From positions 1 to 64,000 of the forward strand of contig NZ_SNWX01000016.1 in assembly GCF_004362045.1 (NCBI RefSeq): a stretch of 64,000 nucleotides of DNA, in the 5' to 3' direction. Position numbers and translations under genes: made by a program. Each line of letters begins with the position of its first letter. Positions within the stretch are counted from its first letter, which is position 1. Of this stretch, positions 6,315-64,000 are shown piece by piece. Under the pieces are notes generated by a model. That model did no database searches. It saw only the letters and a program-made list of their open reading frames with translations, and had not been told where the DNA came from. This DNA is from Halanaerobium saccharolyticum. Its GTDB lineage: Bacteria; Bacillota; Halanaerobiia; Halanaerobiales; Halanaerobiaceae.

Positions 6315-6455
6315 TTTTATTCCTCCTTTTGAATTCTTTTGTTTAAATATATATGCACTATTATTTATTATTAAAGATTTTAGCTGTTTTTCCTGCTTTT
6401 ATTTTGAAATTTTATCTTGTCAAATTCCTGTAAAATTATTTATAAATCTAATATT

Positions 6456-7406: not shown

Positions 7407-7559
7407 TATTGTGCCACCTCCCACTGTTCATTATAATTATATTATAATAGGCCTAATAAAACAAATATTTATTATATTCTGAAATCAGAGAATTTAATTT
7501 AGCTGTCAGCTTAAAATATGTTATAATTACTTTAATCAACTCAGAAAGGAGGCGCTCTT

Positions 7560-9329
7560 ATCAAAAAAGCAGTGATTTTAACACTTATCTTTCTATGTAT
7601 TTTTGTCTTTTCTTTTCATCTCAAAGAAGAAATTTTGAAAAATGATTCAGTTAAAATATTTATTATAGATTCAAAAATAGATAAAGATTTTTTAAACAGT
7701 CCCGCCCTGAAAATTCAGCCCGAGAGCTCTCACGGCAGCAAAATAGCGGCAGTAATCCGCAGCCAGAGTCGGGTTAAGATTAAAACTTTATCTGCTGAAA
7801 ACCTCACAGGACGGATCGATGAAAATAACTATCTTGCCGCCTTAAGAGAAATCAAAAATTATGCGGTACTTCATCCCGAACAAAAAATAGTTGTCAACAT
7901 CAGCCTTGGTTTTGAAGAGTCCGGGTTTCAGCGGAAAATTATCAAAAAAATTAATGAACTTCAAAACATAGTTTTAGTGGCAGCGGCAGGTAATAATAAC
8001 CAGGAAAAGATCTCCTATCCGGCTAAATTCGAAAATGTAATAGCCGCTGCTGCTCTGGAAGGAAAAGGAAAAATGCCGGGCTCCAATTATGGTCAGGAGA
8101 TTGATTTCGCCGCCTCCGGGATTATAAAGATCACTCAGCGGTATTATCTGCCTGCATTTAATTTCAGTCGGAAATATAAATTAACAGGTACCTCCTTTGC
8201 AGCTCCTCAGGTTACAGCTTTAATTGCAGATGTTTTGAGTCTAAATCCAGAACTAAGTATTAAAGAAACTTTAAAAATTATCACAGCTACAGCTGATAAA
8301 ATTGCAGACCCTCTTTTTAGTAAAAACAAATTGGGAGCGGGCAGGATAGATAGATTTGAGGCCTTAAGTAAGGCCAGACCTCTTTATTTCTGGCTGCAGC
8401 TGGCAGTCTACAGCTCACTTATGCTTGCCGCTCTCTTTTTGCTCTATTTCTGCTGGCAGAAATATTCTATCAGTGGAATTTTTATATTTTTGATTGTTTC
8501 TGCCACTATATTTTTAATCCAGCCAATTTTGCTGCTGTTCTACTATCAATTTGGTCTCTTAAATATTATGCTTTTCCTTTTAAGCCTGGGGGCAATATAT
8601 GTTGTGTCTTTAAAGCTGCTTAAATTTTATCTTAAAAATTCCAGTAATTTTTCTTTAATGCTCAAAATTGGACCTCATTTAAATAATAAGCTGCAGGACC
8701 AGGTCGGCGAAAAAATCACCAGGTTTTTAACAGAAAATAATATCAACAAACAGAAATTGGAGCAAGCTATAATCAGCAGCCTGCGCCAGAGCTATTCTCA
8801 AAAAAAGATTGAATTTTATCTACAGCTTGCTGCTGCTTTTAAACTGCCACCGATAGCCTTAATTATAGAAAAAACTATGAATTCGAAAATTTCTGCCGGG
8901 GCTGCAGCTTCAAAATTAAATTTAGAACAAAAAAATAAAAAAGAGCAATTTATATTAATTGCTGAGCTGCTGGCAGTTATTTTTAATAATGACTATTCTG
9001 AAAAGAAAAAAGCTGCAGAAATTGCAGCAGCACTTAACTCAGCTTTGATTCTGATTCCTATAAAAAACACTCTTCAAAAAAGAAATCAGCTCCAGCTAAA
9101 TGATTCAGTTTTATTTTTTCTGCTGGATATCGTGGGTGGGTTTGCGGAAATGGCAGCCGATTTTACTCCTCTGCTTAAAGAAATAATTACTCAGGCAAGT
9201 AATCCCTGGCTTAAATTTCACGCTCTACAGGCTTATCAAACAGTTGGAATTGGGGATAGTGACTACCAGGAATTTATAAACAAAATAAAGGCAAAAGAAA
9301 AAGAGCCCGTTTTACTGGCTCTCAAATAA
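7560..9329 (+). CDS. Membrane-anchored subtilisin-like (S8) serine protease with helical cytosolic tail
   Basis: The peptidase has Asp (IIDSKID, about residue 37), His (SSHGSKIAAVI, about 58), oxyanion Asn (AAAGNNN, about 145) and Ser (GTSFAAPQVTAL, about 212). An N-terminal hydrophobic anchor is followed by the protease domain, three membrane segments (about 277-299, 306-328, 333-354) and about 230 residues of HEAT-like helices. The nearest ATG/GTG/TTG start is GTG at 7572, 19 bases from AAAGGAGG and too far. An ATC at 7560 is 7 bases from it and gives the typical IKKAVILTL N-terminus, so ATC is preferred. The propeptide usual in secreted subtilases is absent or very short. Confidence 0.82.
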   Translation: MKKAVILTLIFLCIFVFSFHLKEEILKNDSVKIFIIDSKIDKDFLNSPALKIQPESSHGSKIAAVIRSQSRVKIKTLSAENLTGRIDENNYLAALREIKNYAVLHPEQKIVVNISLGFEESGFQRKIIKKINELQNIVLVAAAGNNNQEKISYPAKFENVIAAAALEGKGKMPGSNYGQEIDFAASGIIKITQRYYLPAFNFSRKYKLTGTSFAAPQVTALIADVLSLNPELSIKETLKIITATADKIADPLFSKNKLGAGRIDRFEALSKARPLYFWLQLAVYSSLMLAALFLLYFCWQKYSISGIFIFLIVSATIFLIQPILLLFYYQFGLLNIMLFLLSLGAIYVVSLKLLKFYLKNSSNFSLMLKIGPHLNNKLQDQVGEKITRFLTENNINKQKLEQAIISSLRQSYSQKKIEFYLQLAAAFKLPPIALIIEKTMNSKISAGAAASKLNLEQKNKKEQFILIAELLAVIFNNDYSEKKKAAEIAAALNSALILIPIKNTLQKRNQLQLNDSVLFFLLDIVGGFAEMAADFTPLLKEIITQASNPWLKFHALQAYQTVGIGDSDYQEFINKIKAKEKEPVLLALK

Positions 9330-10241
9330 TTACTTTAGTTGAGAAATCTCAGCCAGCACCCAGTCTCTAAACTGCTTTTGATCAATTTCTACTGCCAGCT
9401 TAACATTTTTTGCGGCTGTATATCTTCCGGCTAAATCAGCAACTGTAGTTCCGGCCGCCGGGCCCTCAACAGCAACTTCCATTTGAGTTTCCTGAAATTT
9501 AAATATCTCCGGCTTCAGTAGATAGCAGATTGTGCAGATATCATGCATCATTAAACCGGCCTGATCTAAATCTCCACCGCGATAGTGGGTAAATAAAGAA
9601 TAAAGCATCTCTCCAGCTCTGCCCAGCGACTTTACTTTTTCGATATCAGTTCTAGTTAAAAGGGCTCTGGTAGTTACCCGCAAGCCAAAGATTGTAATCG
9701 GCAGACCGGAATTAATAACCATCTGGGCTGCATGAGGATCAACTTTTATGTTAAATTCCGCACTTGTATTAGTATTTCCACCAATGGTGGAACCACCCAT
9801 AATCACAATTTCTTCAATTTTTGGTTTAACTTCTGGGTACATACTGAGCAGCAGAGCCACATTTGTCAGGGGGCCAATTGTCACCAGAGTAACTTTTTCC
9901 TCACCCGCTAAAATTCTATTTTTAATCTCCACTGCTGCATGTTTGGGAAGCAGCTTACGGCTGCTCTCGGGAAAATCAAAACCATTCATCCCGGTTTCTC
10001 CGTGAAACTGACTTGCATCTTCGTATTCGCGCAGTATCGGTAGAGAATTACCCTTTGCCAGAGGAGTATCTTTTTCAAAAAAATCTAGAATTTTCTTTGC
10101 ATTTTCAGTTGTATAATCAAGATTAACATTTCCGGCGACTGTACTCAGCATTTCCACCTTCAGTTCCAGATTATTTAAAGCAATTGTTAAAGCTGCTGCA
10201 TCGTCTATTCCTGGATCTGTATCAATTATAATTTTTCTCAC
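9330..10241 (-). CDS. Inosine/uridine-preferring nucleoside hydrolase
   Basis: A 303-residue ribohydrolase that cleaves nucleosides to base and ribose. The N-terminal IIDTDPGIDDAAAL is the Ca2+-binding DxDxxxDD signature. VTIGPLTNVALLL, VIMGGSTIGGNTN and AEFNIKVDPHAA are the other family strands, and HDICTICYLLKP carries the C-terminal catalytic Asp. It starts at GTG behind AGGAGATG. It is 48 bases downstream of the nitroreductase-like gene on the same strand. Its stop abuts that of the convergent protease with no intervening base. Released ribose could feed the ribose locus at 20-28 kb. Confidence 0.9.
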   Translation of the reverse strand: MRKIIIDTDPGIDDAAALTIALNNLELKVEMLSTVAGNVNLDYTTENAKKILDFFEKDTPLAKGNSLPILREYEDASQFHGETGMNGFDFPESSRKLLPKHAAVEIKNRILAGEEKVTLVTIGPLTNVALLLSMYPEVKPKIEEIVIMGGSTIGGNTNTSAEFNIKVDPHAAQMVINSGLPITIFGLRVTTRALLTRTDIEKVKSLGRAGEMLYSLFTHYRGGDLDQAGLMMHDICTICYLLKPEIFKFQETQMEVAVEGPAAGTTVADLAGRYTAAKNVKLAVEIDQKQFRDWVLAEISQLK

Positions 10242-10289
10242 TAAATCATCTCCTGTTTGGTCATTAGTTATTCACTCTGATTAATTCAT

Positions 10290-11048
10290 TTATAGTTTAA
10301 CTGTACCCAGGTAATTATAATTTTCTACTGGAGCCGGACTTTTGTCCAGCTTTGTAAATTCAAATTTCTGATCATGTTCTTCTGCTGCCAGCCAGAGATG
10401 AGCTAGAGCTATTCCCATATCAATTCTATTCATTTTTTCATAGAAAAACTTCTTAATAAAATTAGGTTCCAGCTGATAAAGATGAATCCGCTCTGACTCT
10501 GTAATAAAATACCAGGGCTGACCATTAGTTGCCGAAGGGGCCAGTCTTGCTGCTTCCAGCAGATCATAATGCTGATTACCCTTTTTTATTTCTGCCAGCG
10601 GTTTACGATCAAAATCTTCAATGGAATCCCGCTGACTTGCTTCAGCAGGTCGACCAAAAACCAGGGTTATTACATATTCTAAATCAGATTCTGCTACAAT
10701 TTCCTTTTTGGGTTTGGCCATTCCAAACCAGCAGCTGCCTAAATTATTTGCAGTCAGATATAAATCAAGCTGCTGCAGGATAAAACCTGCATTTAAAAGA
10801 TAATCTCCCTTGGGCTCCGAAAAAAACTGCAGGTAATGAGGGGATTTAATTGGAAGCAGACTTTTTACTGCCTCTGAATTTACAATTTTAGCCTCGAATT
10901 TGATTTCTGGGTCTAACTCTTTTATCTGCTTTAAAAAATCAGTTATTTCTTTGAGCTCATTTTCGCTCAGCTTTTCCTCTTCGTATTTTCTGATTGACTT
11001 ACGCTTATAAATTGCCTGATACAGTTCTTCTAAATTGCGATCTTCCAT
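10290..11048 (-). CDS. Nitroreductase-family protein, second copy
   Basis: A 252-residue paralogue of the protein at 4610-5407. The N-terminal IYKRKSIRKYEEEKLS is the FMN-contact segment. AARLAPSATNGQPWYF (about residues 166-181) is the second FMN loop, and ANNLGSCWFGMAKP matches the GTCWV helix of the paralogue. Start ATG behind AAAGGAGAG. It lies between the SNF2 gene (87-base gap) and the nucleoside hydrolase. The substrate is unknown. Confidence 0.78.
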   Translation of the reverse strand: MEDRNLEELYQAIYKRKSIRKYEEEKLSENELKEITDFLKQIKELDPEIKFEAKIVNSEAVKSLLPIKSPHYLQFFSEPKGDYLLNAGFILQQLDLYLTANNLGSCWFGMAKPKKEIVAESDLEYVITLVFGRPAEASQRDSIEDFDRKPLAEIKKGNQHYDLLEAARLAPSATNGQPWYFITESERIHLYQLEPNFIKKFFYEKMNRIDMGIALAHLWLAAEEHDQKFEFTKLDKSPAPVENYNYLGTVKL

Positions 11049-11134
11049 CTTATCTCTCTCCTTTGGTTGGACCCGCTTTCGGATTTAAACTACTCCTGTT
11101 ACAGCAGTAAAAAATTTCTGATTTTAGATTAAAA

Positions 11135-14100
11135 CTAAAATGCCAGAAGTTCCTGAATGTCCTCCCAGTTAATAGCTTTAATTGGATTAACATTATTTTC
11201 AATTATATTATTGAAAAGGTCCTGTTTGCGCTCCTGCAGTTTTAACATTTTTTCTTCTACTGTGCCTCTGGTAATTAGCTTGTAGACCATCACCCGGTTC
11301 TCCTGGCCCAGACGGTGAGCTCGATCTGTGGCCTGGCGCTCGACCATTGGATTCCACCAGGGATCAACATGAACTACCATATCAGCAGCAGTTAGATTTA
11401 AGCCAACTCCACCCGCCTTGAGACTGATTAAAAATATTTTAACTTCCGGATTGCTGTTAAACTCTCTTACCTTTTCCATCCGTTTTCTGGTTGAGCCATC
11501 AAGATAGAGAAAATTAATCCCCTGCTGTTCTAAGTCATCTCTAATCAGCTTCAGCATTTTAACAAACTGACTGAAAACAATAATTTTATGGCCGCCACTT
11601 AAGGCATCAGACAGCAGTTCTCTTAAAGCATCAAGCTTACCTGAATTATGAGCCCTTCCTTCCTCTCCTAAAACTAAAGAGGGATGATTGCAAATCTGAC
11701 GCAGTTTAGTCAGGACTGCCAGCACATTAATCCGGGAACGATTAAAACCTTTTTCATCTACAGTCTGCTGCAGCTCTCCCCGGACTTCTTCCAGCACGGT
11801 CTGATAACTGTCTTCCTGCAGCTGGGTCATGCTGACCGGATGGACATTAACAATTTTTTCGGGAAGTTCTTTTAAAACCTCTCCCTTGCGGCGCCTTAAT
11901 ATAAAGGGCGCTACTCTTTCTTTAAGCTCTGTCATTTTAGCCTGCTCGTTGTTTTTGTTGATCGGTGTTAAAAAGTTTTTCTTAAAATAGCTGTAATTCC
12001 CGAGATAACCGGGCATCAAAAAATCAAAAATCGACCAGAGTTCTTCCACAGAATTCTCCAGTGGGGTTCCGGTTAAAGCCAGCCTTGATTCAGCCTGAAT
12101 ATTTTTGACCGCCTTTGCTCTTTTGGTCCGGTGATTTTTTATATGCTGGGCTTCATCTAAAATCGCAAAAGAAAAAATCCAGTTCTCCTGATTCAGCTCT
12201 TCCACATCTCTGCTGATAGTTGAATAAGAAGAAATTATTAGATCATAGTTATTAAAATTCTGACGCATTTCCTCTCTCTCAGCTGGAGTGCCATAATAAA
12301 CTAAAGTTTTTAAATCATCAAAAAACTTATCAGATTCCTCCTGCCAGTTATAAATCAAAGTTCTGGGACATAAAACTAAAGCAGGTCTCTCAGGCCTGAC
12401 ACTCTTCAGCAGAGTCAGCATCTGCAGGGTTTTTCCCAGACCCATATCATCTGCCAGAATTCCGCCAAAGTGATATTTATGCAGAAAACGCAGCCAGTTA
12501 TAACCATTTTTCTGATAATCACGCAGTTTACCTTTGACACCAGGTGGAATCTCTCTTTCTTTAACAACATTAAGACCGCTAATTTCATTTTCCAGTTCAT
12601 TAAATACTTTATTACCTTTAAAGTTAATACCACTTTTTTCTACCAGATTTTTATAATATAACAGATTATGGTAGGGAGCACGATAGCTGTCAGCCTGTGT
12701 TTCAGCATCTTTAAGCATCTGCTCAACTTTTTCTTCCTGAGCACCACTTTCTAAGATATAATACTGATTGTCCAGCTTAATATAAGCCTCTCCCTTTTTA
12801 TTGTAAGAAATCAGCTGCTGCAGCTCCTGGCGGCTGTAAGTCTGGCCGCCCAGATTATAGCTGATGGAAAAATCAAACCAGTTAATCCCTTTACTATCAT
12901 CAATCTCAACTATGGGCTCCAGCTTAACTTCCTTAATCTCAATCTGATCAAAACTCTGACTGCGCTCAACCTTCCAGTCTTCCGGAATATGAGTCATCCC
13001 ATCTGTTATAAACTCCTGGATCTCACTGTTATCCCGGAGAATAAAATGTTCGGGCCGAACTTTGAAATTATATTCCTCCAGAAATTCAATTACTTCAGCC
13101 AGAGCCTTGTTATCTCTGCCATACCAGAGTTCTGGATCTTCTTCATCCCTTTTATAAATGTTCTGGTCGGTATCTATACCAAGCAGCTCAGTGTTGCTGT
13201 ATTTTTCTCCGGCAAATTCCACTACCAGCTCACAGCTGATTTTTCCCTGTTCATAGTCCAGCTTCAAATCAAACTCAGGACTTTCTTTAATCAGTTCATA
13301 ATCCTGCAGCTCTTTTGAGCGCTCAAGTTCAAGATTTTTCTCAAGAGTTGGTAAGATTTCAAATAAAAATTCTCCCTGCCGCTGTTTAGGAATCAAAAAC
13401 TTAGCCGGCAGTTCAGAAAAATTATAAAAGTCAATTTTATGAACAGTATTTTCGATTAAAGTCCAGCGGCAGTCATTTTCGCTGCCCTGATAAATCGGAA
13501 AATCTTCCTCTTTTAAATCAATTGTAATCTCGTCCAGATCACCTTCCATTTTCAGCTCCGGCTTTAGAGTTTTTCCTTTTTTAATGATAACTCCATTTTC
13601 CTCCAGCTGCAGCTTGAAATTTTTACTTAACTCCAACAGAAAATCTAAGTTTTCTTCATTTTTGATTAAAAGCAGAGAACAGCCCCGACCTTTGCTTTTA
13701 AGCAGATCTGATAAATTCTCCAGAAGTTTTAATTCTCTGCCGTAAAAATGTTTCTGAAGCAGGCTTTCTTTATAATAAGCATAGCGCTGATCTTCATTTA
13801 AAGAATTTACAACTTCCTCCAGCTCCTGCTGGCTTAAATAATCGGAATCAAAAATCAATTTAAAATTTTTCAGGTCCTGATTTAAAATTCCCTTAACACT
13901 ATATTCCAGTTTGGGCATTTCGCTTTCATCATAATTTTTGGTGATTTCCAGCAGGCTCTTAAAACTGCGGTCAGCAATCCGCCGCTCAACAAGATCAGCT
14001 TCAGAACTCTTCGCTGAATCTTCGTTTGAGAATTTAAACTCTGATATTTCCTGCTCCTGATCAGCTGCAGGCTCATAATTAACCTTTGGTGAACGAAAAT

Positions 14101-53290: not shown

Positions 53291-54229
53291 TTAATATGGA
53301 GAATCAGGATCTAAAAATTGTTTGTAATTTGTGCGGTCAACAATAGTTGTAGGAATAATGGTTTCTTTTGGTACTTTTTCTCCCTCTAATAATTTAACTG
53401 CTACATCAACTGCATCTTTAACCATTGCGGGAGAATATAGGGCAGACTGCAGCCAGATATCTTCATATTTAGGCATCATCTCAAAATATTCCTGCATACC
53501 TCCACCACCAGTTACAACTTTAATATCTTCCCGACCGGCTTCTTCGATTGCCTTGACAACTCCGATTGAGGTTTCATCATCCATAGAATATACCGCATCA
53601 ATATGATCATGTCTGATTAAAATATCTGACATATCACTTAAACCTGCTGCTCTGGTAAACTGAGTTGCATAGGTGTGCAGCTCATAGTCAGCACCAATTT
53701 CTTCTAAAGTATCTAGAAATCCTGCTTTGCGAAGTTCAGAAACTGAGCCAGCTGTCGGTACTTCAAGGATAACAACTGTTCCTTCTTTACCAATTTTATC
53801 TGCAATATAGTGAGCTCCCTCAACTCCCATATCATAATTGTCACCAGCTACTCGATAAACACCATCAACATTAATTTCAATATCAAAATTAACTACTTCT
53901 ATACCATCCTGAATAGCCATTCTAATTGGAACTTCCATACCTGTCCACTGAGGGAAAGCAACTACAGCTTCTGCTCCCCAGGTTTTCAAATCATCAAGCT
54001 GTGAAGTCATTTCGGAAGCATTACTGCTGGTCTGAATTCGATATTCAATCTTATCAGATAATTCTTCACAGCGAGCTTCAGCATGATAGGCAACAGCAGC
54101 AACCCAGCCGTGAGTAACTGCAGGAGCTAAAATACCAATCTTGTGCTTATCTTGAGCACTTACTCCACCAGCAAAGACAAGAGTTAACAGCAGGGAAAGC
54201 ATAACTAAAAACACTAAAGATTTTTTCAT
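53291..54229 (-). CDS. CUT2 sugar/cyclitol-binding protein
   Basis: A 312-residue secreted protein with a signal peptide (KKSLVFLVMLSLLLTLVFAG, cleaved near VSAQ). Type I binding fold: HKIGILAPAVTHGWVAAVAY, LKTWGAEAVVAFPQWTG, GAHYIADKIGKEGTVVILE, AVYSMDDETSIGVVKAI, VTGGGGMQEYFEMM. It is divergent from the ribose-type protein at 27492. The ligand is unknown; context suggests a cyclitol or glycoside-type sugar. Start ATG behind AAGGAGG. Confidence 0.9.
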   Translation of the reverse strand: MKKSLVFLVMLSLLLTLVFAGGVSAQDKHKIGILAPAVTHGWVAAVAYHAEARCEELSDKIEYRIQTSSNASEMTSQLDDLKTWGAEAVVAFPQWTGMEVPIRMAIQDGIEVVNFDIEINVDGVYRVAGDNYDMGVEGAHYIADKIGKEGTVVILEVPTAGSVSELRKAGFLDTLEEIGADYELHTYATQFTRAAGLSDMSDILIRHDHIDAVYSMDDETSIGVVKAIEEAGREDIKVVTGGGGMQEYFEMMPKYEDIWLQSALYSPAMVKDAVDVAVKLLEGEKVPKETIIPTTIVDRTNYKQFLDPDSPY

Positions 54230-54329
54230 AAATCATTTCCTCCTTAATTTTAGTTGACTATGATCTGCAAATTACTCAGCAAAGTTGAAGTCAAGACTAC
54301 CTAATACCATAGGACTGAGACCTTAATTC

Positions 54330-55313
54330 TTAGACATCATCCCCTTCTAAACCAGCTATTTCTTCTAAAATATCAACTGTATTAATCAGCTGTTCTTTTG
54401 TGATTTTATCTGAAGCAATTCCTTTTTCTGCACAGTCAATAAAATGAGAAAGCTCATTATAAAACATTGCAGTTGGCGGCAGGTTAATTCCTGTTTCAAT
54501 CTTTGGCTCAGCCTCTGTCTCAAATTTTAATGCTTCTCCCTCTGGTGGATAAAAAATAAGCTGATCTTCATTAACTAAAAGTCCCTCCTCAAAATAGACC
54601 CGCCAGCGGGCAGTAAAAGGATAGCCGGCATGATACCAGGCCGCCTCTGCCCCCACTTTAAAATCTTTATAATTATAGCTGAAGCGGTAATGTTCTTTAA
54701 ATGGACTTTCTTTTCTTCCAGCTGCAGTAAAGCTGAAGCTTTCAGGACTGCCAAAAAGGCTGACAATTAAATCAAGGTCATGAATGTGTAAGTCAAAAGG
54801 TAGCAGTCCGCTTTTTTCCTTATCAAAGAGCCAGCCACCTGCTGACCAGTCAGGAGCTGCAGTCAGCCTGGTAAAATAGGCATCTAAAACCCGACCGTAT
54901 TTACCGCTTTTTACAGCTTCTTTTAAAATTTCTACTTCTTTAGTAAAATGCAGCACCTGACCCACAAAAACCAGAGCCTCATTTTCTGAAGCCAGAGCAA
55001 AAATCCTTTCTGCATCTTCTCTGTGCAGGGCAATTGGTTTCTCAATAATCACATTTTTGCCTGCACTCAAAGCTGTAAGTGCATGTTCAAGATGAAGATA
55101 GCTTGGAGTACAGATATCGACTATATCGATTTCTTCAGCAGTCAGCAGTTCTTTGATATCAGGATAAATTTCAACTCCCCATTTTGCTGCTTTTTCTCGA
55201 TCAGCTTCCGAAGGTCCGACAACTGCTCTGACTTCTGCCTTTTCAATCTGAGCATAGTTATTAAAATGTACTGTTCCCATCCCCCCTACACCGACAATCG
55301 CAATTTTTTGCAT
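54330..55313 (-). CDS. Gfo/Idh/MocA-family oxidoreductase, second member
   Basis: 327 residues. AIVGVGGMGTVHFNNYAQI is the Rossmann motif; IIEKPIALHREDAERIF carries the EKP Lys; FDLHIHDLDLIVSLFG gives the DxHxxD catalytic region. It differs clearly from the member at 49480, so the two probably oxidise and reduce different positions or substrates. Start ATG behind GGGGGGAG. It is followed by the binding protein gene 100 bases later. Confidence 0.87.
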   Translation of the reverse strand: MQKIAIVGVGGMGTVHFNNYAQIEKAEVRAVVGPSEADREKAAKWGVEIYPDIKELLTAEEIDIVDICTPSYLHLEHALTALSAGKNVIIEKPIALHREDAERIFALASENEALVFVGQVLHFTKEVEILKEAVKSGKYGRVLDAYFTRLTAAPDWSAGGWLFDKEKSGLLPFDLHIHDLDLIVSLFGSPESFSFTAAGRKESPFKEHYRFSYNYKDFKVGAEAAWYHAGYPFTARWRVYFEEGLLVNEDQLIFYPPEGEALKFETEAEPKIETGINLPPTAMFYNELSHFIDCAEKGIASDKITKEQLINTVDILEEIAGLEGDDV

Positions 55314-55394
55314 CTGCTCCCCCCTTAACTAATTTTTTTCAGCCAAATAATATTGTCAAAGAGACCGTTTGTTTAAATTTAAACTGCTTAAAAA

Positions 55395-56213
55395 TCAAAT
55401 TTTAAAACCTGCCTCTTTCAGAAAATCATAAGAATCCTTTACTGCCTGATTAACCTCTTCTAAATCTGAAGGTCCCTCTTCTTCAAACTCAATTTCAATA
55501 CTGAAGGGTGAATTATTATCATTTTTTTCTAAAATCTCAAAAAGTGGTTTAAAATTTATATTCCCCTTCCCTAAAGCGGGAAAGTTCCATTCAGTCTGAG
55601 CTCCAGCTTTATCTTTGAGATGAAGATGTCCAACCTTTTCAACAGCAGTTTTCAGGTCAGCTGCCAGATCAAGATCCTTTCCTCCATAAAAAATAGCATT
55701 TGCCGTATCATAATTTATTACAACCCGTTCAGAATCAATCAGATCAACAATCTCTATTAGCCGCTTACCTGTTCCGTGTTTACCGTGGTTTTCAAGTCCT
55801 AAAATAAGATTATAATCTTCCAGATATGGAATTAAATTTTTAATATTTGCTGCAACCTTCTGATCTGAAGCTTCTGCCTTATCTTCCAGGTGAGCTTCTC
55901 CAATTGAAGAGATTATATATTTACAGCCAAAAAAATGGGCCAGCCGAATATTGGCAATAAAATCATCCAGGCGATCATTATCCATCAGGTTGGTGTGGCC
56001 GCTTAAAGAAATTGGAATTAGCTCTGCCTCTATCAGCCGATCTTCAATCTCATATAACTCATTTAAAGACATCGTCGGAAAAACATGTTCTGTCCAGCCT
56101 TTAGTAGCAGTAAGTTCGATATAATTAAAGCCCGCTGCTTTAATTCCTTTAATTGCTTCTGCAAGAGAAAAATCGTGATAAGTATTTGAATTAACAGCAA
56201 TTATTCTTTTCAA
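55395..56213 (-). CDS. Sugar phosphate isomerase/epimerase-type TIM-barrel protein, second member
   Basis: 272 residues, starting at TTG behind GGGGAGGGG. AAGFNYIELTATKGW, LILGLENHGKHGTG (metal Glu), VVINYDTANAIFYGG (Asp), GHLHLKDKAG (His) and FSIEIEFEEE complete the metal-site strands. It is the first gene of the operon. It may open or epimerise a 3-keto-sugar or an inosose. The paralogue at 48406 is at the other end. Confidence 0.85.
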   Translation of the reverse strand: MKRIIAVNSNTYHDFSLAEAIKGIKAAGFNYIELTATKGWTEHVFPTMSLNELYEIEDRLIEAELIPISLSGHTNLMDNDRLDDFIANIRLAHFFGCKYIISSIGEAHLEDKAEASDQKVAANIKNLIPYLEDYNLILGLENHGKHGTGKRLIEIVDLIDSERVVINYDTANAIFYGGKDLDLAADLKTAVEKVGHLHLKDKAGAQTEWNFPALGKGNINFKPLFEILEKNDNNSPFSIEIEFEEEGPSDLEEVNQAVKDSYDFLKEAGFKI

Positions 56214-56426: not shown

Positions 56427-56681
56427 ATGGAACATTCTATGATCATGGCAATTTTAATTGACAAAAGAACTGATGCTGCTCCAAGGGTTCAGGAAATATT
56501 GACCGAACACGGCTGTCTAATTAAAACCCGTCTTGGAATGCACGAAAGCAGTACCTGTGCTGATGAAGGAATGATCATCTTTGATTTAACAGCAGAAAAT
56601 ACTGAAGTTGAGGCCTTAGAGGCAGAATTAAAGTCAGTGGAAGGTGTAAAGGTTAAGAGTATGGTGCTGGATTTTGAATAA
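56427..56681 (+). CDS. TM1266-like small protein (iron-only hydrogenase system regulator family)
   Basis: An 84-residue ferredoxin-like (ACT/NikR-C-type) domain protein. ILIDKRTDAAPRVQEILTEH, IKTRLGMHESST, GMIIFDLTAENTEVEALEAE and VEGVKVKSMVLDF match the TM1266 pattern. Two Cys residues (HGC, STC) are an addition. Start ATG behind AGGGGGTG. No hydrogenase maturation genes are nearby, so the link to hydrogenase rests on the family only. Confidence 0.77.
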   Translation: MEHSMIMAILIDKRTDAAPRVQEILTEHGCLIKTRLGMHESSTCADEGMIIFDLTAENTEVEALEAELKSVEGVKVKSMVLDFE

Positions 56682-56829: not shown

Positions 56830-57963
56830 TTAAATTTCAAATCTAGTATCTGCCTCAATAACTTTTGAACCAATTATTGTTTTTAATGGTCTCAAGTAAT
56901 TATGAAGACATAAACTGTTGTTATTTGAATCAAAAACTTCAACTTCACATTCTTCTTCTCTAAAAACTGTAAATCGAGCCTTTTTATCAAAAAATTCATT
57001 TTGATAAGTTTCTACTCCTAAAATATCAGCAGCATTAACTGTTACAGCCTCTATAACCTGTTCCAGCTCCATTCCCAGTTCTTTTAATTTAGACATGGTT
57101 AAACTTAAATCCCAGACAGGACCATCAATATTCTCAGTATGGAGATCAGTGCTGATAGTATCCGGAAAATATTCAGCGGCAAAAGCCTTTCTGGCAACAT
57201 CATAATTAAAACTTGCTACTCCATGTCCCACATCAAACTTTATACCTTTTTCAATCGCTACTTTATATTCATTTAAAAATTCTCCCTTGCGGTATATTCC
57301 CCAGCGCTTACCGTGATAAACATGTGTCACAATATCTCCTGGATCTAAATAAGGCAAAATATCTTCTAATAATGGCAGAGGTTCTCCTACATGAACCATT
57401 AAAGGAAGTGATACTTCTCTAGCAGCCTCCTTTGCCAGTTTAACAATATCTGAATTCATTCCCTGCAGAATGACTCCACTTGCTCTTAACTTAATTCCTT
57501 TTATATAATCTCTATTCTCCTCAATTCTCTGATATAAATTATCAAGGTCAATCATATTCAAACTATTTAGCTCACTTATTTGATTTGATTTTATCAGACC
57601 GGTTGAGCCAAGATTGATAAATGAATAAATCGGATAATCACGTGGCTCAATAATATATTTTTTAAAGCCTAAAAAATTAGCTTCACCGGCACTTCCGGTA
57701 TCATTTAAAACTGTCACTCCAGTTTTAGGACCAATCAAATCAGGGTTTAAACCTAGATTTGAAACTCCATAATAGATATGAGTATGAAGATCAATCCAGC
57801 CTGGAGAAAGATAACTATCTTTAAGATCTAAAACTTTTAATTCAGACATCTCAGTCTCAATTTTATCTCTAATATATCCCTGATCATCCAGATAAAATTC
57901 TTTAATATCCTTAAATTGACTTGGAAATCCTATCAACTTAAAATTTTTAATTAATTTTGCCAT
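56830..57963 (-). CDS. Amidohydrolase/deacetylase-type metallohydrolase (EF_0837/Atu3266-like)
   Basis: 377 residues. The binuclear amidohydrolase site is seen as DLHTHIYYG, carboxylated Lys in GIKLRASG (about residue 150), His in MVHVGEPLP and VTHVYHGK, and Asp in STDLHTENIDG. It hydrolyses amide or ester bonds of small acyl compounds; the substrate is uncertain. It lies 28 bases after the DppF-type gene, the last gene of the D-aminoacylase operon. Start ATG behind GGAGGTTAAG. Confidence 0.85.
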   Translation of the reverse strand: MAKLIKNFKLIGFPSQFKDIKEFYLDDQGYIRDKIETEMSELKVLDLKDSYLSPGWIDLHTHIYYGVSNLGLNPDLIGPKTGVTVLNDTGSAGEANFLGFKKYIIEPRDYPIYSFINLGSTGLIKSNQISELNSLNMIDLDNLYQRIEENRDYIKGIKLRASGVILQGMNSDIVKLAKEAAREVSLPLMVHVGEPLPLLEDILPYLDPGDIVTHVYHGKRWGIYRKGEFLNEYKVAIEKGIKFDVGHGVASFNYDVARKAFAAEYFPDTISTDLHTENIDGPVWDLSLTMSKLKELGMELEQVIEAVTVNAADILGVETYQNEFFDKKARFTVFREEECEVEVFDSNNNSLCLHNYLRPLKTIIGSKVIEADTRFEI

Positions 57964-57990: not shown

Positions 57991-58965
57991 TTACTTATCT
58001 AATAAATGACAGGCCACAAAATGTTCAGCACCATATTCTTTAAACTCTGGCTCAACTTTTGGACATGGGTCAAAAGCTTTTGGACAGCGGGGATGAAATC
58101 TGCAGCCAGATGGAGGATCTACCGGTGAAGGTACATCTCCTTCTAAGATAATTCTATCTTTTTTCTTTCTCGGATCAGCTTCTGGAATAGCAGATAATAG
58201 TGATTGGGTATAGGGATGAATTGGATTCTTAAATAGTTCTTTTTTATCTGTTAACTCCACAATCTTACCGAGATACATTACTGCTACTCGATCACTGATG
58301 TGCTTAACTACACTTAAGTCATGGGCAATAAATAGATAGGTTAAACCAAACTCTTTCTGTAAGTCCTGCAGCAGATTAATAACCTGAGCCTGGACTGATA
58401 CATCAAGTGCAGATACCGGCTCATCAGCAATGATTAGCTTGGGATCTACTGCTAAAGCTCTGGCTACACCTATCCGCTGACGCTGTCCTCCACTAAATTC
58501 ATGGGGATAGCGGTTCATATATTCTTCACCCATACCAACATTTTCTAATATTTCTTTCACTCTCTCATTTTTTTCTTCCTTATTTTCAACCAGTTTGTGA
58601 ATAATAAGCGGTTCACCTACAATATCAGCTACTGTCATTCTGGGATTAAGTGAGGCATAGGGATCCTGGAAAATAATCTGCATATCGCGCCTGATAGCGC
58701 GCAGATCTTTTTTATCTAGGTCCATCACACTTTTACCTTCAAATATTACCTCTCCAGCTGTAGCTTCCAGCAGGCGAAGGATTGTTCTTCCTGTTGTTGA
58801 CTTACCACAACCTGATTCTCCTACCAGACCGAGTGTTTCTCCTTTTTTTACTGCAAAGGATATATCATCAACCGCTTTTACATAATCTACTGTTCGTTTA
58901 AATATTCCTGCTTTAACCGGAAAATATTTTTTTAGATTATTAACTTCTAATAAGTTCTCAGCCAT
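57991..58965 (-). CDS. Oligo/dipeptide ABC ATPase, DppF/OppF type
   Basis: 324 residues. Walker [14 protein letters not shown], signature [15 protein letters not shown], Walker [19 protein letters not shown]. The C-terminal Cys-rich [14 protein letters not shown] is usual for this peptide-transporter subfamily. It overlaps dppD by one base (TAATG-type junction). It partners DppD and DppC. Confidence 0.93.
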
Positions 58966-59993
58966 TATTTTTGAACACCTCGATCCTCGTAAATTCTTTC
59001 TCCCCGTTTCTTGATCTCCTCTAAATCTTTATATCTCCAGCAGCGAACCATATGATTTCCGTCTGCATCCTCTAAAGGTGGCTCCTGATCATAACATTTG
59101 CCTTCTGCCAGAGGACAGCGGGTATTAAACTTACACCCATCTGGAAAGTTAAGTGGAGAAGGTACACTTCCTGGAATAGCTTCCAGGCGATCAACATCCT
59201 TATCCAGCTTAGGAATTGAGTTCATCAAACCCCAGGTATATGGATGTTTTGGATCTTCAAATAGTGTATTTACATCTGTATATTCTACTACCTTACCAGC
59301 ATACATTACTGCTACTCTATCTGAAACTTCAGCAATTACCCCTAAGTCATGAGTAATCATCATAATTGACATGCCATAACTTTCTTTTAAAGAGTTCATC
59401 AGCTCTAAGATCTGAGCCTGAATTGTTACATCAAGTGCTGTAGTCGGCTCATCAGCAATCAGAAGCTGTGGATCACAGCTTAAAGCCATAGCGATCATCA
59501 CCCGCTGCCTCATACCTCCAGATAACTGATGGGGATATTCGTCAACACGCTGCTCAGGTAGAGGAATACCTACCTTGGTCAGCATATCAATTGCCTGACG
59601 TCTTGCTTCTTTTCTATCAACCTGTTTATGAAGTATAATCGCTTCCATTATCTGATCTCCTACAGTATAAACAGGATTTAGAGAAGTCATCGGCTCCTGG
59701 AAAATCATTGAAATATCATTACCACGAATTTTTCTCATTTCTTTTTCAGGAATTTTGGTTAAATCTCTACCGCCAAAGTTTATTTCTCCAGCTTCAATTC
59801 TGCCGGGAGGTGATTCGACAAGCCTCATAATTGATAATGAGGTAACACTTTTACCACAGCCAGACTCACCCACTACTCCCAGGGTTTCTCCAGGGTATAT
59901 TTCAAAATCTACCCCATCAACAGCTTTGACTACACCTTCCTCAACATAGAAGTATGTTTTTAAATTTTTAACTTCTACCAACTTTTCAGCCAT
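58965..59993 (-). CDS. Oligo/dipeptide ABC ATPase, DppD/OppD type
   Basis: 342 residues. Walker [14 protein letters not shown], signature [15 protein letters not shown], Walker [19 protein letters not shown]. The C-terminal [14 protein letters not shown] is the Cys motif of the subfamily. It energises the DppB/DppC-type channel whose DppC gene starts past the window edge. It lies 14 bases after ridA. Confidence 0.93.
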
Positions 59994-60007: not shown

Positions 60008-60469
60008 TCATTTTTTTACTTTTACAATCATTTCTAATTCAACTGGGATATCATCTGGAAGAACTGAAGTTCCTAGAGCAGCTCTGGCGTGGCGCCCTTT
60101 TTCACCGAAAATCTTAACCAGTAATTCCGAAGCTCCATTAACTACTTTTGGCTGCTCCAAAAAATCATCTGTACTGTTAACAAAACCTCTTAGTTTAACT
60201 ATATCTTCTATTTCATCAAGTGAACCCACCACTGATTTGACTGCTGCTAAAGCATTTAAACAGCACTGCTGAGCACACTGATAGCCCTCTTCCAAACTTA
60301 CACTGCCTCCTACTTTACCGATATAGATAAACTCACCGTCTTTAATTGGTCCCTGCCCTGAAACATAAACTAAGTCATTTACCTTTTTAGCAGGTATATA
60401 TTCAGCTATTGGTTCTGGAGCTTCAGGTAATTCTAAACCAAGTTCCTTAATTTTTTCTTCAACACTCAT
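60008..60469 (-). CDS. RidA-family (YjgF/UK114) imine/enamine deaminase
   Basis: 153 residues. NDLVYVSGQGPIKDGEFIYI is the N-terminal strand, ALAAVKSVVGSLDEIEDIVK the helix, and HARAALGTSVLPDDIPVELE carries the catalytic Arg and Glu. It belongs to a longer Rid branch (about 25 residues more than RidA proper). RidA proteins destroy reactive 2-aminoacrylate-type products of PLP enzymes. It lies 3 bases after the SelA-like gene, consistent with cleaning up that enzyme's product. Start ATG behind GGAGGAAT. Confidence 0.9.
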   Translation of the reverse strand: MSVEEKIKELGLELPEAPEPIAEYIPAKKVNDLVYVSGQGPIKDGEFIYIGKVGGSVSLEEGYQCAQQCCLNALAAVKSVVGSLDEIEDIVKLRGFVNSTDDFLEQPKVVNGASELLVKIFGEKGRHARAALGTSVLPDDIPVELEMIVKVKK

Positions 60470-60472
60470 TAA

Positions 60473-61600
60473 TTATTCCTCCTTTATGATATCTTTAAAT
60501 TTTTTAACAATAATTTTTTCTTCTCCCCTCTGAAGCATATGTGGATTAATTAAAAGATGGTTTTTATCAGTTTCTACAATTACCACAGGCTCATCCTGGG
60601 CTAATTTATCTCTCAGCTGTTCTTTATTAAAGCCTAAAATTTCTTCATCAACTTCAATAAACAAGCGTGGAATTGAAGCAGGCTGAGTTAAAGGCTGATC
60701 TGGATATCCAAGCTCTATTTCGAATGCCTCAATATTTTTAAGTTTTTCATACATAAAATCTGTCTGCTCCTCCCACTGTTCCATCCTTGCTTTTTGATCT
60801 TCATTTAAATAGAGCTCGATAGCTGTAGTCAATCCCATAATAGTTTCCTTGTCTAACTTCATTGGTCTACCTAAAGCATGGTTTGGATAACCATTTGCCC
60901 TACATTTATCTAAAAGCTCCTGGCGTCCCAGCATCAATCCTGAAGATTGTGGTCCTCTTAAGTCTTTCCCCCCACTAAAAAGAACAATGTCTGCACCCTG
61001 GTTGACAAATTTAGTTAAATTTTCTTTTGGAGGTAGTTCAGCTGCAGCATCAACAATCACAGGTAGATTATGACGATGAGCAATTTCTATAATCTTTTTT
61101 AAAGTTAAAGACGCACGAAACATATCTGACTGGACAAAGAAAAATACTCCGGCTGTTTTTTCATTAACAGCACCTTCCAGCTCCCAGCCAAAAGTCTCAA
61201 TCGCATTTCCAATTTCAACAAATTTACCTCCAGCAGTAATTACAGCCTGATCATAGGGATTACGATGTGATTTCATGACGATAAATTCGTTTTTAAGACC
61301 ATCACTTAGAGGAAGCTGCCGAGAAAGATACTTATTATTACCAGCAATACAAGCAGCTGTAGAAAGCGCCAGACCTGCTGCCGCACCGGCAGTTATTAAA
61401 GCAGCTTCTACATCTAAAAGACCAGCAATATACTGTCCACTTTTAGTGAGCAGTTCATCTATGTCTACAAACTGTTTTGAAGCTTTTTTCATAGCATCTA
61501 AAACTTCTTCTTTCATCAAAGAACCACTGTATTTGGTATAGGTACCAGCAGCATTTATAATCTTTTTTACTCCAAGCTTATTATAAGTTACCATAATCAT
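60473..61600 (-). CDS. SelA-like PLP-dependent enzyme (lyase/transferase)
   Basis: 375 residues. INAAGTYTKYSGSLMKEEVL is the SelA-type N-terminus, ALITAGAAAGLALSTAACIAG the phosphate-binding part, VIVDAAAELPP the PLP Asp strand, and LFSGGKDLRGPQSSG the Schiff-base Lys. The N-terminal SelA domain that binds tRNA is missing, so selenocysteine synthesis is unlikely. Relatives include D-glucosaminate-6-phosphate ammonia-lyase (DgaE)-type enzymes. In this operon it may act on a D-amino acid. ATG 61600 or 61594 could start it. Confidence 0.85.
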   Translation of the reverse strand: MIMVTYNKLGVKKIINAAGTYTKYSGSLMKEEVLDAMKKASKQFVDIDELLTKSGQYIAGLLDVEAALITAGAAAGLALSTAACIAGNNKYLSRQLPLSDGLKNEFIVMKSHRNPYDQAVITAGGKFVEIGNAIETFGWELEGAVNEKTAGVFFFVQSDMFRASLTLKKIIEIAHRHNLPVIVDAAAELPPKENLTKFVNQGADIVLFSGGKDLRGPQSSGLMLGRQELLDKCRANGYPNHALGRPMKLDKETIMGLTTAIELYLNEDQKARMEQWEEQTDFMYEKLKNIEAFEIELGYPDQPLTQPASIPRLFIEVDEEILGFNKEQLRDKLAQDEPVVIVETDKNHLLINPHMLQRGEEKIIVKKFKDIIKEE

Positions 61601-61606
61601 TCTCCT

Positions 61607-63202
61607 TTAACTTAAAATTAATTTACCAGCCTTAACCTCCTGGTATTCACTATCTAAAACAGCAATTTTACCATTTACTATTACAGCTGAAATCCCCTGA
61701 GGATAAAAATCTGGGTTAGAAAAAGTCGGTGATTTTATCTGATCTAGATCAAAAATTACAAGATCAGCAATTTTATTTTGTTCAATCAAACCCCGGTTTT
61801 TAAGATTAAATTTTTGGGCTGGCAGTGAGGTCATTTTTCTAACTGCTTCTTCCAGATTAAGAATTTTTTTATCCCTCACATATTTACTTAAAACTTCAGT
61901 ATAACTTCCATAATTTCTGGGATGAGGGTTACCAGATGCTAAAACTCCAGAATTAGATAAAGAAACTCCATCACTGCTGACCATAGATGCATAGTACTGC
62001 ATAAAATTAACCACATCATCTTCATTTAAGGCTCTAGAAATCCAATCACCTGCCAGGTATTCTGTCAGCATTTTAAATAAAGCATCTACCGGCTCTACAT
62101 CCCAGCTGTCAGCAATCTCTTTTAAAGTCATTCCCTCCAGACTGTGATCAGCTGGATAATTAGCAATAATCTGATTTTCTGCCCCACCTCTTCTTTTAAT
62201 ATTTAAGGCTACAATATCCCTTAATTCAGCCCGCACACTCTCCTGTTTCAATTCTGTCATTGCTTCTTGATTACTTTTATTACTTAAAAATTCATTTGGC
62301 AGTACATCACTGGCCATTAATCCACCTGTAGCAAGATAGGGGTACTGGTCCGCTGTCACTTCCAGCCCTCTTTCTCTTGCTTTTTCTATTAAATCTAGAA
62401 CTTCTCTGGAACTTCCCCAGACATCAGGACCAAAGGCCTTAAGATGAGAAATTTCCAGAGAAACTTCAGCCTTTTCAGCAATTTCAATAATTTCCTTAAC
62501 AGCATTAATAAAACCTATAGATTTAACTCCTTCATCTCGAATATGACTGGTTAGAACTCCATTTTTAGAACTTATAACTTCTGCCAGAGCAATCAATTCT
62601 GATTGATCAGCAAAATTGCCCGGAGAAAAATATAAACCCGTTGACATCCCTCTATAACCTAAATCCAGAGCTTGAGCTAAAATTTCTTGCATCTTCTTTA
62701 ACTCAGCAGAAGTGGCTTCGCGGTTATCCATTCCCATTACATAGGCCCGAAGAGTCCCATGACCTAAAAGTGGAGTTAAATTAACTGTTTTTTCTACCGC
62801 TGCTAAAGCAGTTAAAAATTCTTCTGGGCTTTCCCATTCAGCTTCAAATCCATAAGTAAAACTTTTAACCTGATCAGCTGACAATTCATTATATGGAGCA
62901 CCACTAATTCCACAATTACCTATGACTTCTGTTGTAACTCCCTGACGCAATTTACTCTGTGCATCAGAATCTAGAAAAAATACAAAGTCAGAATGACTGT
63001 GTACATCAATAAAACCAGGACTTAAAAATTTATTTTGGGCATCAATTATTTTTGCAGCCTCATATTTCTTCAAATTTTCAGGATCATTATCTCTAATAAC
63101 CTCAACAATTTCATCTCCCTCAACGGCTAGACTTCCGTAATACCAGGGATTAGATGTACCATCAATAATCTTAGCATTTTTTATAAGCAGATCAATTTTC
63201 AT
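61607..63202 (-). CDS. N-acyl-D-amino-acid deacylase
   Basis: A 531-residue zinc amidohydrolase. ATG 63202 follows GGAGATG; a longer frame would overlap the permease gene. SPGFIDVHSHSDFVF is the HxH metal motif, VIGNCGISGAP holds the metal Cys, and TSHIRDEG and EISHLKAFG follow. SSDGVSLSNSGVLASG and HPRNYGSYTEVL are D-aminoacylase signatures. It releases free D-amino acids from N-acyl forms. It lies downstream of the DppC-type permease (16-base gap). Confidence 0.92.
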   Translation of the reverse strand: MKIDLLIKNAKIIDGTSNPWYYGSLAVEGDEIVEVIRDNDPENLKKYEAAKIIDAQNKFLSPGFIDVHSHSDFVFFLDSDAQSKLRQGVTTEVIGNCGISGAPYNELSADQVKSFTYGFEAEWESPEEFLTALAAVEKTVNLTPLLGHGTLRAYVMGMDNREATSAELKKMQEILAQALDLGYRGMSTGLYFSPGNFADQSELIALAEVISSKNGVLTSHIRDEGVKSIGFINAVKEIIEIAEKAEVSLEISHLKAFGPDVWGSSREVLDLIEKARERGLEVTADQYPYLATGGLMASDVLPNEFLSNKSNQEAMTELKQESVRAELRDIVALNIKRRGGAENQIIANYPADHSLEGMTLKEIADSWDVEPVDALFKMLTEYLAGDWISRALNEDDVVNFMQYYASMVSSDGVSLSNSGVLASGNPHPRNYGSYTEVLSKYVRDKKILNLEEAVRKMTSLPAQKFNLKNRGLIEQNKIADLVIFDLDQIKSPTFSNPDFYPQGISAVIVNGKIAVLDSEYQEVKAGKLILS

Positions 63203-63218
63203 TTTGAATTCATCTCCA

Positions 63219-64000
63219 TTAAAGTTCATCTTTAAACTTCGGATCAAGTCTATCTCTTAAAGCATCACCAAAAAGATTAAAAGAAAGCACCGTAATTACA
63301 ATAAATATCCCAGGGAACAGCAGCAGCCATGGTGCTCTAGTTATATAGTCCTGACTTGAGCTGAGCATATTTCCCCAGCTTGGTATCTGCGGTGGAATAC
63401 CTACACCTAAAAAATCAAGTGCCGCCATCTGCAGTAGAGCAAAGGCAAAAGTGAAAGTAGCCTGAACAATAATAGGTGAAATTAAATTTGGTATGATATG
63501 CATAAATAAAACTCTTGCATTACTTGCTCCTTCCGCTACCGCTGCTTCCACAAAGGCATCTTTTCTAATTTTTAAGGTAAGTCCATATGTTATTCGAGCT
63601 GTCCTGGTCAAATAAACCGCACCTACAGCAACAATAACATTTATTATACCCTGACCTAAAATTGCCACTAAGGCCAGAGCCAGCATAATTGGAGGAAAAG
63701 CCATCACAACATCTATGATTCTCATGATAAACATCCCAAGAGTGTCAAAATAACCAGAAAGCGAACCTAAAATTACACCAAAAACTATAGAAAATATAAC
63801 AACTCCAAAACCGCTGAGCACAGTAATTCTCGCTCCATAAATAATCCTGCTGAAAATATCTCGACCAAAATTATCTGTACCAAACCAGTGGGTAGAATTT
63901 GGTTTCTGCAGTCTGTCAATCGGATTTATTTTCATAGGATCATAAGGTGCAATCAGAGGGGAAAGCAGTGCCATCGAAATAATAATAAATAGAATTACAG
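63219..64000 (-). CDS. Peptide ABC permease, DppC/OppC type (5' end beyond the window)
   Basis: The partial gene runs off the window at 64000. The open frame continues upstream of the internal ATG (63974) with VILFIIISMALL, part of the first membrane helix, so the real start is outside. HWFGTDNFGRDIFSRIIYGAR is a classical DppC block (GTDxxGRD); EAAVAEGASNARVLFMHIIP is the EAA loop; FNLFGDALRDRLDPK ends the protein. It serves the DppD/DppF ATPases in the same operon. Confidence 0.93.
   Translation of the reverse strand, partial: VILFIIISMALLSPLIAPYDPMKINPIDRLQKPNSTHWFGTDNFGRDIFSRIIYGARITVLSGFGVVIFSIVFGVILGSLSGYFDTLGMFIMRIIDVVMAFPPIMLALALVAILGQGIINVIVAVGAVYLTRTARITYGLTLKIRKDAFVEAAVAEGASNARVLFMHIIPNLISPIIVQATFTFAFALLQMAALDFLGVGIPPQIPSWGNMLSSSQDYITRAPWLLLFPGIFIVITVLSFNLFGDALRDRLDPKFKDEL

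Follow-up and report, generated by a model that had tools for sequence, protein, structure and literature searches.

The window analyzed here is a stretch of 64,000 nucleotides from Halanaerobium saccharolyticum (contig NZ_SNWX01000016.1, positions 1 to 64,000), and it ends in a minus-strand operon in which the gene for a SelA-like enzyme dependent on pyridoxal 5'-phosphate (PLP) lies between genes for a D-aminoacylase-family amidohydrolase and a Rid protein. We asked what compound this operon might degrade. The genes of the operon are as follows:

63219-63998, minus strand: DppC-type permease of a Dpp/Opp ATP-binding cassette (ABC) transporter, from the list of open reading frames (ORFs); it extends beyond the window end
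61607-63202, minus strand: D-aminoacylase-family amidohydrolase, ATG start, from family profile matches
60473-61600, minus strand: SelA-like PLP enzyme (375 amino acids), proposed Rid-coupled ammonia-lyase, from profiles, structure alignment and tree
60008-60469, minus strand: Rid protein (153 amino acids, PF14588) carrying the conserved arginine R129, from the ORF list, Pfam and alignment
58965-59993, minus strand: DppD-type ATPase, from its own sequence and comparison with annotated transporter genes
57991-58965, minus strand: DppF-type ATPase, from its own sequence and comparison with annotated transporter genes
56830-57963, minus strand: COG3964-type amidohydrolase, 279 bits to PDB 2ogj, from profile and structure-sequence matches

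The successive gaps from DppC to the last amidohydrolase are 16, 6, 3, 14, -1 and 27 bases, the negative value being a 1-base overlap of DppD and DppF, and the start codon of the Rid gene is preceded by AGGAGG. The ORF coordinates confirm the gene order from permease to amidohydrolase and the 3-base gap between the SelA-like and Rid genes, both of which had been described in an earlier reading made from the letters of the window (the sequence-only reading). For the D-aminoacylase, the ORF list also gives an alternative longer frame that starts at a TTG at 63247. Both hydrolases match the amidohydrolase family in Pfam and NCBIfam, and we take their COG numbers to be COG3653 and COG3964. DppB is located on the contig beyond the window end, next after DppC. 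Halanaerobium kushneri (L005/L024) has the same genes, preceded by a substrate-binding protein, DppB and DppC, with a SelA-like protein 83% identical to that of the window, and a third Halanaerobium genome (L025) has the same order, except that DppD and DppF are not in that place. Because the order recurs in both genomes, it is not due to chance, and the trio of D-aminoacylase, SelA-like enzyme and Rid, whose conservation the earlier reading had proposed as a check, is indeed found in other genomes. No DgaF or phosphotransferase system (PTS) gene was found among the operon genes using the ORF list and the Pfam and NCBIfam scans, and the same is true of L024 and L025.

The SelA-like protein matches the Pfam SelA family PF03841 at 58.7 bits, above the cut-off, as would be expected of a selenocysteine synthase SelA or a tRNA-acting paralogue. 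Its score to the SelA model TIGR00474 is 71.6 bits against a cut-off of 267.9, and the match covers profile positions 71-454 of 455. Since the match begins at position 71, the N-terminal part of SelA is absent, in agreement with the earlier statement that the protein has no SelA-type tRNA-binding part. In addition, the window genome has a separate gene for a 471-amino-acid SelA-like protein, followed by one for a SelB-like GTPase (L105; judged from sequence). The best-scoring subfamily model is NCBIfam TIGR01437 (selA_rel, DgaE-related) at 251.8 bits, below its cut-off of 385.3, and the equivalog model of D-glucosaminate-6-phosphate ammonia-lyase (DGL) gives 215 bits, below its cut-off of 600. 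An AlphaFold model of the protein has a mean predicted local distance difference test score (pLDDT) of 87.7, with values below 50 at residues 159-162 and 303-305, and its fold aligns with Cap15 (8t7j) at Z 41.6, with DGL (7lc0) at Z 40.3, and with SelA at Z 27-29. Based on the model scores, the fold Z values and the separate SelA-like gene, the protein is a DGL-branch enzyme and not a selenocysteine synthase, and we consider the probability of a SelA function to be negligible. The following positions of its active site were compared with those of DGL:

60965-60967, minus strand: codon of K212, the PLP-binding lysine in SGGKDLRGP, aligned with DGL chain position 213 (7lc0)
61112-61132, minus strand: loop QSDMFRA (residues 157-163), which replaces SHHCVQK of DGL and has no histidine proton donor
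60665-60667, minus strand: R312, counterpart of DGL Arg301, kept
60572-60574, minus strand: E343, counterpart of the DGL phosphate-site residue Arg332, lost
60539-60541, minus strand: H354, counterpart of the DGL phosphate-site residue Arg346, lost

K212 is invariant across a 15-row alignment, and the PLP lysine that the earlier reading had picked out in SGGKDLRGP is at the expected position. In PMC9529869, the DGL lysine is numbered Lys-217, His163 protonates C3, a substrate docked by hand has its phosphate near Arg301, Arg332 and Arg346 and its carboxylate near Arg226, and the H163A variant is still active but frees an enamine, in connection with which the authors discuss RidA. The window protein shares with DGL its fold, its length, the PLP lysine and one of the three phosphate-site arginines, and both the retained arginine and TIGR01437 as the best subfamily model would suit an enzyme that acts, like DGL, on D-glucosaminate-6-phosphate. 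However, its scores are below both curated cut-offs, two of the three phosphate-site arginines and both His162 and His163 are gone in the alignment, the scans of the operon genes gave neither DgaF nor PTS, and the protein belongs to a separate clade, so we consider a phosphorylated substrate of this kind very unlikely.

Cap15, which we take to have a role in capuramycin, is the closest structure, with a Z value 1.3 above that of DGL, and the title of PDB entry 8t7j calls it oxygen- and PLP-dependent. Some of the SelA-like relatives (L045, L074) are near phosphonate-type or other genes. These observations are consistent with some other PLP reaction, such as that of a racemase, an aldolase or a Cap15-like O2-dependent decarboxylase, in which case the Rid protein would remove a by-product imine. 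However, Cap15 keeps the arginine triad, which the window protein does not, and in the tree described below it lies on the side of the DgaF loci, outside the clade of the window. Halanaerobium is an anaerobe, so an O2-dependent reaction is unlikely, and overall we regard another type of PLP reaction as quite unlikely.

The Rid protein belongs to the families PF14588/PF01042. Its best structure-sequence matches are 3d01 (122 bits) and 2otm (94 bits), both uncharacterised, followed by the Rid1 proteins PA0814 and ACIAD3089 (PDB 9bk9 and 9bkb; 91 and 69 bits). The conserved arginine column (R129 in the window, presumably equivalent to Arg105 of RidA) has an arginine in 7 of the 8 aligned Rid proteins, while in the eighth, from Granulicella, the arginine is one column off. 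Judging from this residue in its sequence, the window protein fits the deaminase-competent Rid superfamily. PA0814 and ACIAD3089, with which it shares both the sequence match and the conserved arginine, accept various imines as substrates in vitro, and to our knowledge they have no dedicated partner enzyme. The available part of PMC5619798 assigns these two proteins to the Rid1 subfamily, reports deaminase activity for members of Rid1-3, and counts RutC among the Rid proteins of E. coli.

Among 38 Halanaerobiales genomes, 6 have a Rid protein of this type (E-value 1e-5), 5 have the SelA-like gene (E-value 1e-20) and 4 have both. The Rid type is thus present in 4 of the 5 genomes with the SelA-like gene and in 2 of the 33 without it (Fisher p 0.001, uncorrected for kinship); because the search was restricted to this Rid type, Rid proteins of other types could have been overlooked. 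In the two genomes that have Rid but no SelA-like match at E-value 1e-20, the Rid gene adjoins one for a threonine-synthase-like fold-II PLP enzyme. A D-aminoacylase gene is adjacent to the Rid/fold-II pair in L101 (G326, 1-2273), with an IclR regulator and a dihydrodipicolinate synthase-like gene nearby, and a few genes from the pair in L100 (G305, 6103-12284), with an IclR regulator and a tripartite ATP-independent periplasmic (TRAP) transporter nearby. As a separate observation, the cluster at L034:9082-14251 combines a SelA-like gene with genes for a Rid protein, a dihydrodipicolinate synthase-like protein and a PLP enzyme resembling D-cysteate sulfo-lyase (256 bits, cut-off 450).

For a broader comparison we collected 42 loci: the window, 4 from other Halanaerobiales, 14 from further genomes out of 299 sampled from the phylum, and 23 from plasmids (18 chosen from 237 records and 5 from 28 records). 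H. kushneri was counted once (as L024, L005 being the same contig judging by length and coordinates), and we dropped L040, a fragment, and L041, which at 469 amino acids was taken as SelA-type, leaving 40 loci. Genes were counted as neighbours when their midpoints were less than 8 kb apart; 39 loci were scored by script and the window was labelled by hand. The reference sequences and the profile used to detect Rid neighbours include members of this locus set, and seven of the Rid neighbours are also annotated as Rid/YjgF (L044, L046, L069, L072, L073, L077 and L109). We ignored the D-aminoacylase label in L037 as weak (23 bits) and counted the DgaF neighbour in L068, which is split over two ORFs. 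This DgaF-like gene (L068:9108-9862), beside an Enterococcus DgaE, consists of ORFs of 163 and 84 amino acids that are absent from the feature table of the record.

A DgaF neighbour was found in 11 of the 40 loci, and all 11 keep His162/163 and the full arginine triad. A Rid neighbour was found in 15, none of which has the full triad, and no locus has both DgaF and Rid. The full triad is present in 3 of the 14 loci that have neither. The assignment of a RidA-like protein in the earlier reading is thus supported both by its deaminase-type arginine and by its recurrence beside the SelA-like enzyme. In a maximum-likelihood tree (43 rows), the DgaF loci are all on one side of a single branch (support 85/76), so the association between the arginine triad and Rid or DgaF linkage (Fisher 1.3e-7) should not be taken as one of independent events. 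The phosphosugar context of DgaF/DgaE, which the earlier reading had named as evidence against its proposal, is found in the neighbouring clade and not in that of the window. The Rid-linked proteins include 8 from alpha- and betaproteobacteria that keep the histidine pair and have Cys for Arg346, and COG3964 and Dpp genes are present as well in 5 of these 8 plasmid loci (L069, L072, L073, L075 and L077). We noted that one record filed as a plasmid, CP125156.1 (L067) from Klebsiella, is 5.37 Mb long and looks like a chromosome.

The relatives also provide clues to the substrate. In L026, from another family of Halanaerobiales, the SelA-like protein is 60-61% and the Rid protein 68% identical to those of the window, and the gene order is polar-amino-acid-type ABC transporter, Rid, SelA-like, 2-keto-3-deoxy-6-phosphogluconate (KDPG) aldolase, PfkB kinase and IclR regulator. 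The aldolase scores 268 bits, above the cut-off of 238. The kinase is nearest to models of 2-keto-3-deoxygluconate (KDG) kinases, with all scores below their cut-offs: 255 bits to the haloarchaeal model for KDG and 2-keto-3-deoxygalactonate (KDGal) kinase (cut-off 440) and 528 bits to a KDPG-aldolase/kinase fusion model (cut-off 700). The regulator stays below the cut-offs of both KdgR (202 bits) and BhcR (199 bits). With a KDG-type kinase and KDPG aldolase encoded next to it, the L026 lyase would most simply make KDG. In the window, neither enzyme is named among the 18 proteins scanned with NCBIfam (8 at E-value 0.001 and 10 at 1e-20), the other ORFs being unscanned; homologues of the two are found together elsewhere in the genome, at C14:65994-68151.

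Further clues come from haloarchaea. A Halorussus aquaticus plasmid locus (L109, 1-10699) has genes for an ABC transporter, a PIG-L deacetylase, a SelA-like protein, glucose 1-dehydrogenase and Rid, and could encode a kinase-free route from glucosamine to KDG. In Halomontanus (L106), the genes are for a D-aminoacylase, a fumarylacetoacetase-family protein, a SelA-like protein, two heparinase II/III proteins, PIG-L, and a GH20 glycoside hydrolase. That DGL homologues share haloarchaeal clusters with RutC-family genes has already been published: the available part of PMC12343721 describes chitinase clusters with DGL homologues, glucose dehydrogenase and a RutC-family protein, interprets the RutC-family gene as a repressor, and has to postulate a kinase of no known identity for glucosaminate use. 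As a separate observation, the SelA-like gene in L027:6138-15665 is followed by genes for GH38, GH4-type, sulfatase and BNR-repeat proteins.

The window operon parallels the ong cluster for N-acetylglucosaminate (GlcNAc1A), which encodes the D-aminoacylase-like deacetylase OngB, the PLP deaminase OngC, a fold-III enzyme that also deaminates D-Ser and D-Thr, and the RidA-family protein OngD, which is essential for growth on GlcNAc1A and whose role was reported as unknown (PMC9537276). Both systems have the same three-part logic of D-aminoacylase-like protein, PLP enzyme and Rid, and for the window operon we infer an unphosphorylated substrate and KDG as the product. The PLP enzyme of the window is a fold-I SelA-like protein unrelated to OngC, the transporter differs, the KDG kinase is outside the operon, and the D-aminoacylase lacks the OngB specificity residues. 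The possible new route of the sequence-only reading is therefore new in the fold of its PLP enzyme but not in its three-part scheme, which had been described for ong (PMC9537276).

We infer every reaction of the pathway that we propose. The Dpp-type ABC transporter would import a 2-amino-2-deoxy sugar acid that carries no phosphate and is either N-acylated or free, and one or both amidohydrolases would remove the acyl group. The SelA-like enzyme would form an aldimine via K212 and eliminate the C3 hydroxyl, giving an enamine that it probably frees, because neither the His163 donor of DGL nor its phosphate site is present. The adjacent Rid protein would convert the enamine or imine to the 2-keto-3-deoxy acid (KDG) and ammonia. 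KDG would then enter glycolysis through the homologues of KDG kinase and KDPG aldolase whose genes lie on contig C14. That the SelA-like protein is a Rid-coupled ammonia-lyase acting on some unphosphorylated D-amino acid is, in our opinion, quite probable. We give about an even chance to a glucosaminate-type sugar acid as its substrate. The full reading is just as evenly balanced: uptake and breakdown, by this operon, of a 2-amino-2-deoxy sugar acid without a phosphate group, with D-glucosaminate or something close to it as the likeliest compound. The earlier reading is supported in part: its chemistry of lyase, enamine and Rid is likely, given the DGL-branch enzyme and the recurrent Rid, and fits the enamine release reported for H163A DGL in PMC9529869.

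Several observations weigh against this pathway. At the position of DGL Arg226, the window protein has Arg, while its four nearest orthologues have Lys, Asn, Lys and Arg. KDG kinase and aldolase genes are beside the SelA-like gene only in L026 and not in the Halanaerobium operon. The SelA-like orthologue in L027 (59% identical) has no Rid gene nearby, and its genome has no Rid match at E-value 1e-5. Among the 8 haloarchaeal loci, Rid is within 8 kb in one (L109), and there is none in L106. The split in the arginine triad, lying as it does on one tree branch, represents a single evolutionary event. We rejected, in its simple form, the idea that loss of the histidine pair predicts a Rid neighbour, since both histidines are kept in 8 of the 15 Rid-linked loci; the pair is absent in 11 of the 14 loci with neither Rid nor DgaF. 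In the window D-aminoacylase, Ala193 of OngB is replaced by Tyr, Ala256 by Phe and Ser290-292 by T-G-G, and there are also changes of Leu116 to Phe, Tyr194 to Phe and Ser291 to Gly, although the available part of PMC12017989, which lists the OngB pocket residues, gives Leu116, Tyr194, Lys254, Tyr285 and Ser291 as strictly conserved in both OngB and D-aminoacylases. From these aligned residues, the pocket looks more hydrophobic than that of OngB, which may mean another acyl amino acid or deacylation by the other amidohydrolase. The lack of the OngB specificity residues in the D-aminoacylase thus speaks against a sugar acid as the substrate of this particular operon.

The same residues bear on whether the SelA-like enzyme instead acts as a lyase on beta-substituted D-amino acids of the ordinary or hydrophobic kind (D-serine, D-threonine or the phenylserine type). 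These would be set free from N-acyl-D-amino acids or D-peptides, and Rid would remove enamines of the 2-aminoacrylate type. The Tyr and Phe at OngB positions 193 and 256 are where the hydrophobic D-aminoacylase AfDam has Phe and Met, according to the available part of PMC12017989, the transporter is of the Dpp type, the same Rid type is found by a threonine-synthase-like PLP enzyme and a D-aminoacylase in L100 and L101, and OngC is also active on D-Ser and D-Thr (PMC9537276). However, the L026 protein, 60% identical, is found with KDPG aldolase and a KDG-type kinase, the characterised ammonia-lyase of the family acts on a sugar acid, and some of the haloarchaeal contexts are of the polysaccharide or amino-sugar kind. 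We therefore consider such a lyase somewhat unlikely. Dpp-type transporters are not limited to peptides. The D-peptide source favored by the sequence-only reading is not borne out by the informative relatives (L026, L106 and L109), whose gene surroundings are those of amino sugars or KDG, and we think an amino sugar acid without phosphate more likely.

With respect to the D-aminoacylase, the window protein keeps the OngB metal ligands Cys97, His222 and His252 in the alignment, its SSDG motif is aligned with the catalytic Asp368 of OngB, and Lys254 and Tyr285 are kept. The position of OngB Gln298 falls in an insertion-domain region without reliable alignment. Two Halanaerobium orthologues have the same changes at OngB positions and keep the metal ligands. 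A role as an OngB-type GlcNAc1A deacetylase, which we considered, is not supported, the specificity residues being Y, F, T and G. A D-aminoacylase match is present in 20 of the 38 Halanaerobiales genomes (E-value 1e-20), so its presence carries little signal. The L106 protein is 36% identical to that of the window, and that of genome G320 (L087), which has no SelA-like match at E-value 1e-20, is 42% identical. Since the L106 protein is no closer than that of G320, the pairing of D-aminoacylase and SelA-like genes may have arisen separately. We also noted that the L106 D-aminoacylase (L106:5585-7183) has Asp at the position of the OngB metal-ligand Cys, which is either real or an alignment slip.

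The COG3964-type protein scores 347 bits to NF006689, just under the cut-off of 371, and 269 bits to TIGR03583, below the cut-off of 432. Its match to PDB 2ogj, which we take to be Atu3266 of Agrobacterium, is 279 bits, in contrast to 770 bits for an Aminobacter homologue that sits in a cluster of Dpp, COG3964, Rid and SelA-like genes. The best substrate of Atu3266 is reportedly acetyl-(R)-mandelate, with N-acetyl-D-serine a weak one.

Rid proteins are usually viewed as general clean-up enzymes. A lyase that lacks the enamine-retaining residue of DGL and is encoded beside a Rid gene would offer a direct way to test whether Rid is an indispensable step of a pathway. More speculatively, we suggest as a possibility that the two form a dedicated pair, in which a fold-I lyase without its own C3 proton donor passes a free enamine to the co-encoded Rid, that Rid is constant across degradation modules while the PLP enzyme is swapped among folds I, II (L100/L101) and III (OngC), and that haloarchaea convert D-glucosaminate to KDG without a kinase. 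This notion of a fixed Rid combined with interchangeable PLP lyases rests on few loci. The finding brings into question the labels selenium transferase or DgaE on such genes, and also the kinase postulated for haloarchaeal glucosaminate use in the available part of PMC12343721. Among the matches listed from the open-licence PMC literature, no title concerns an operon of SelA-like and Rid genes, and a term search of the available part of PMC4433059 found no mention of SelA, glucosaminate or aminoacylase.

Elsewhere in the window, a separate sugar group on the minus strand (53291-56213) encodes a TIM-barrel isomerase-like protein, a Gfo/Idh/MocA dehydrogenase and a ribose-type binding protein. 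Between this group and the operon, on the plus strand (56427-56681), is a gene for a protein of 84 amino acids that matches the CPF_0552 family (107 bits, cut-off 85) and also has a weaker match to the model of the hydrogenase-system regulator TM1266.

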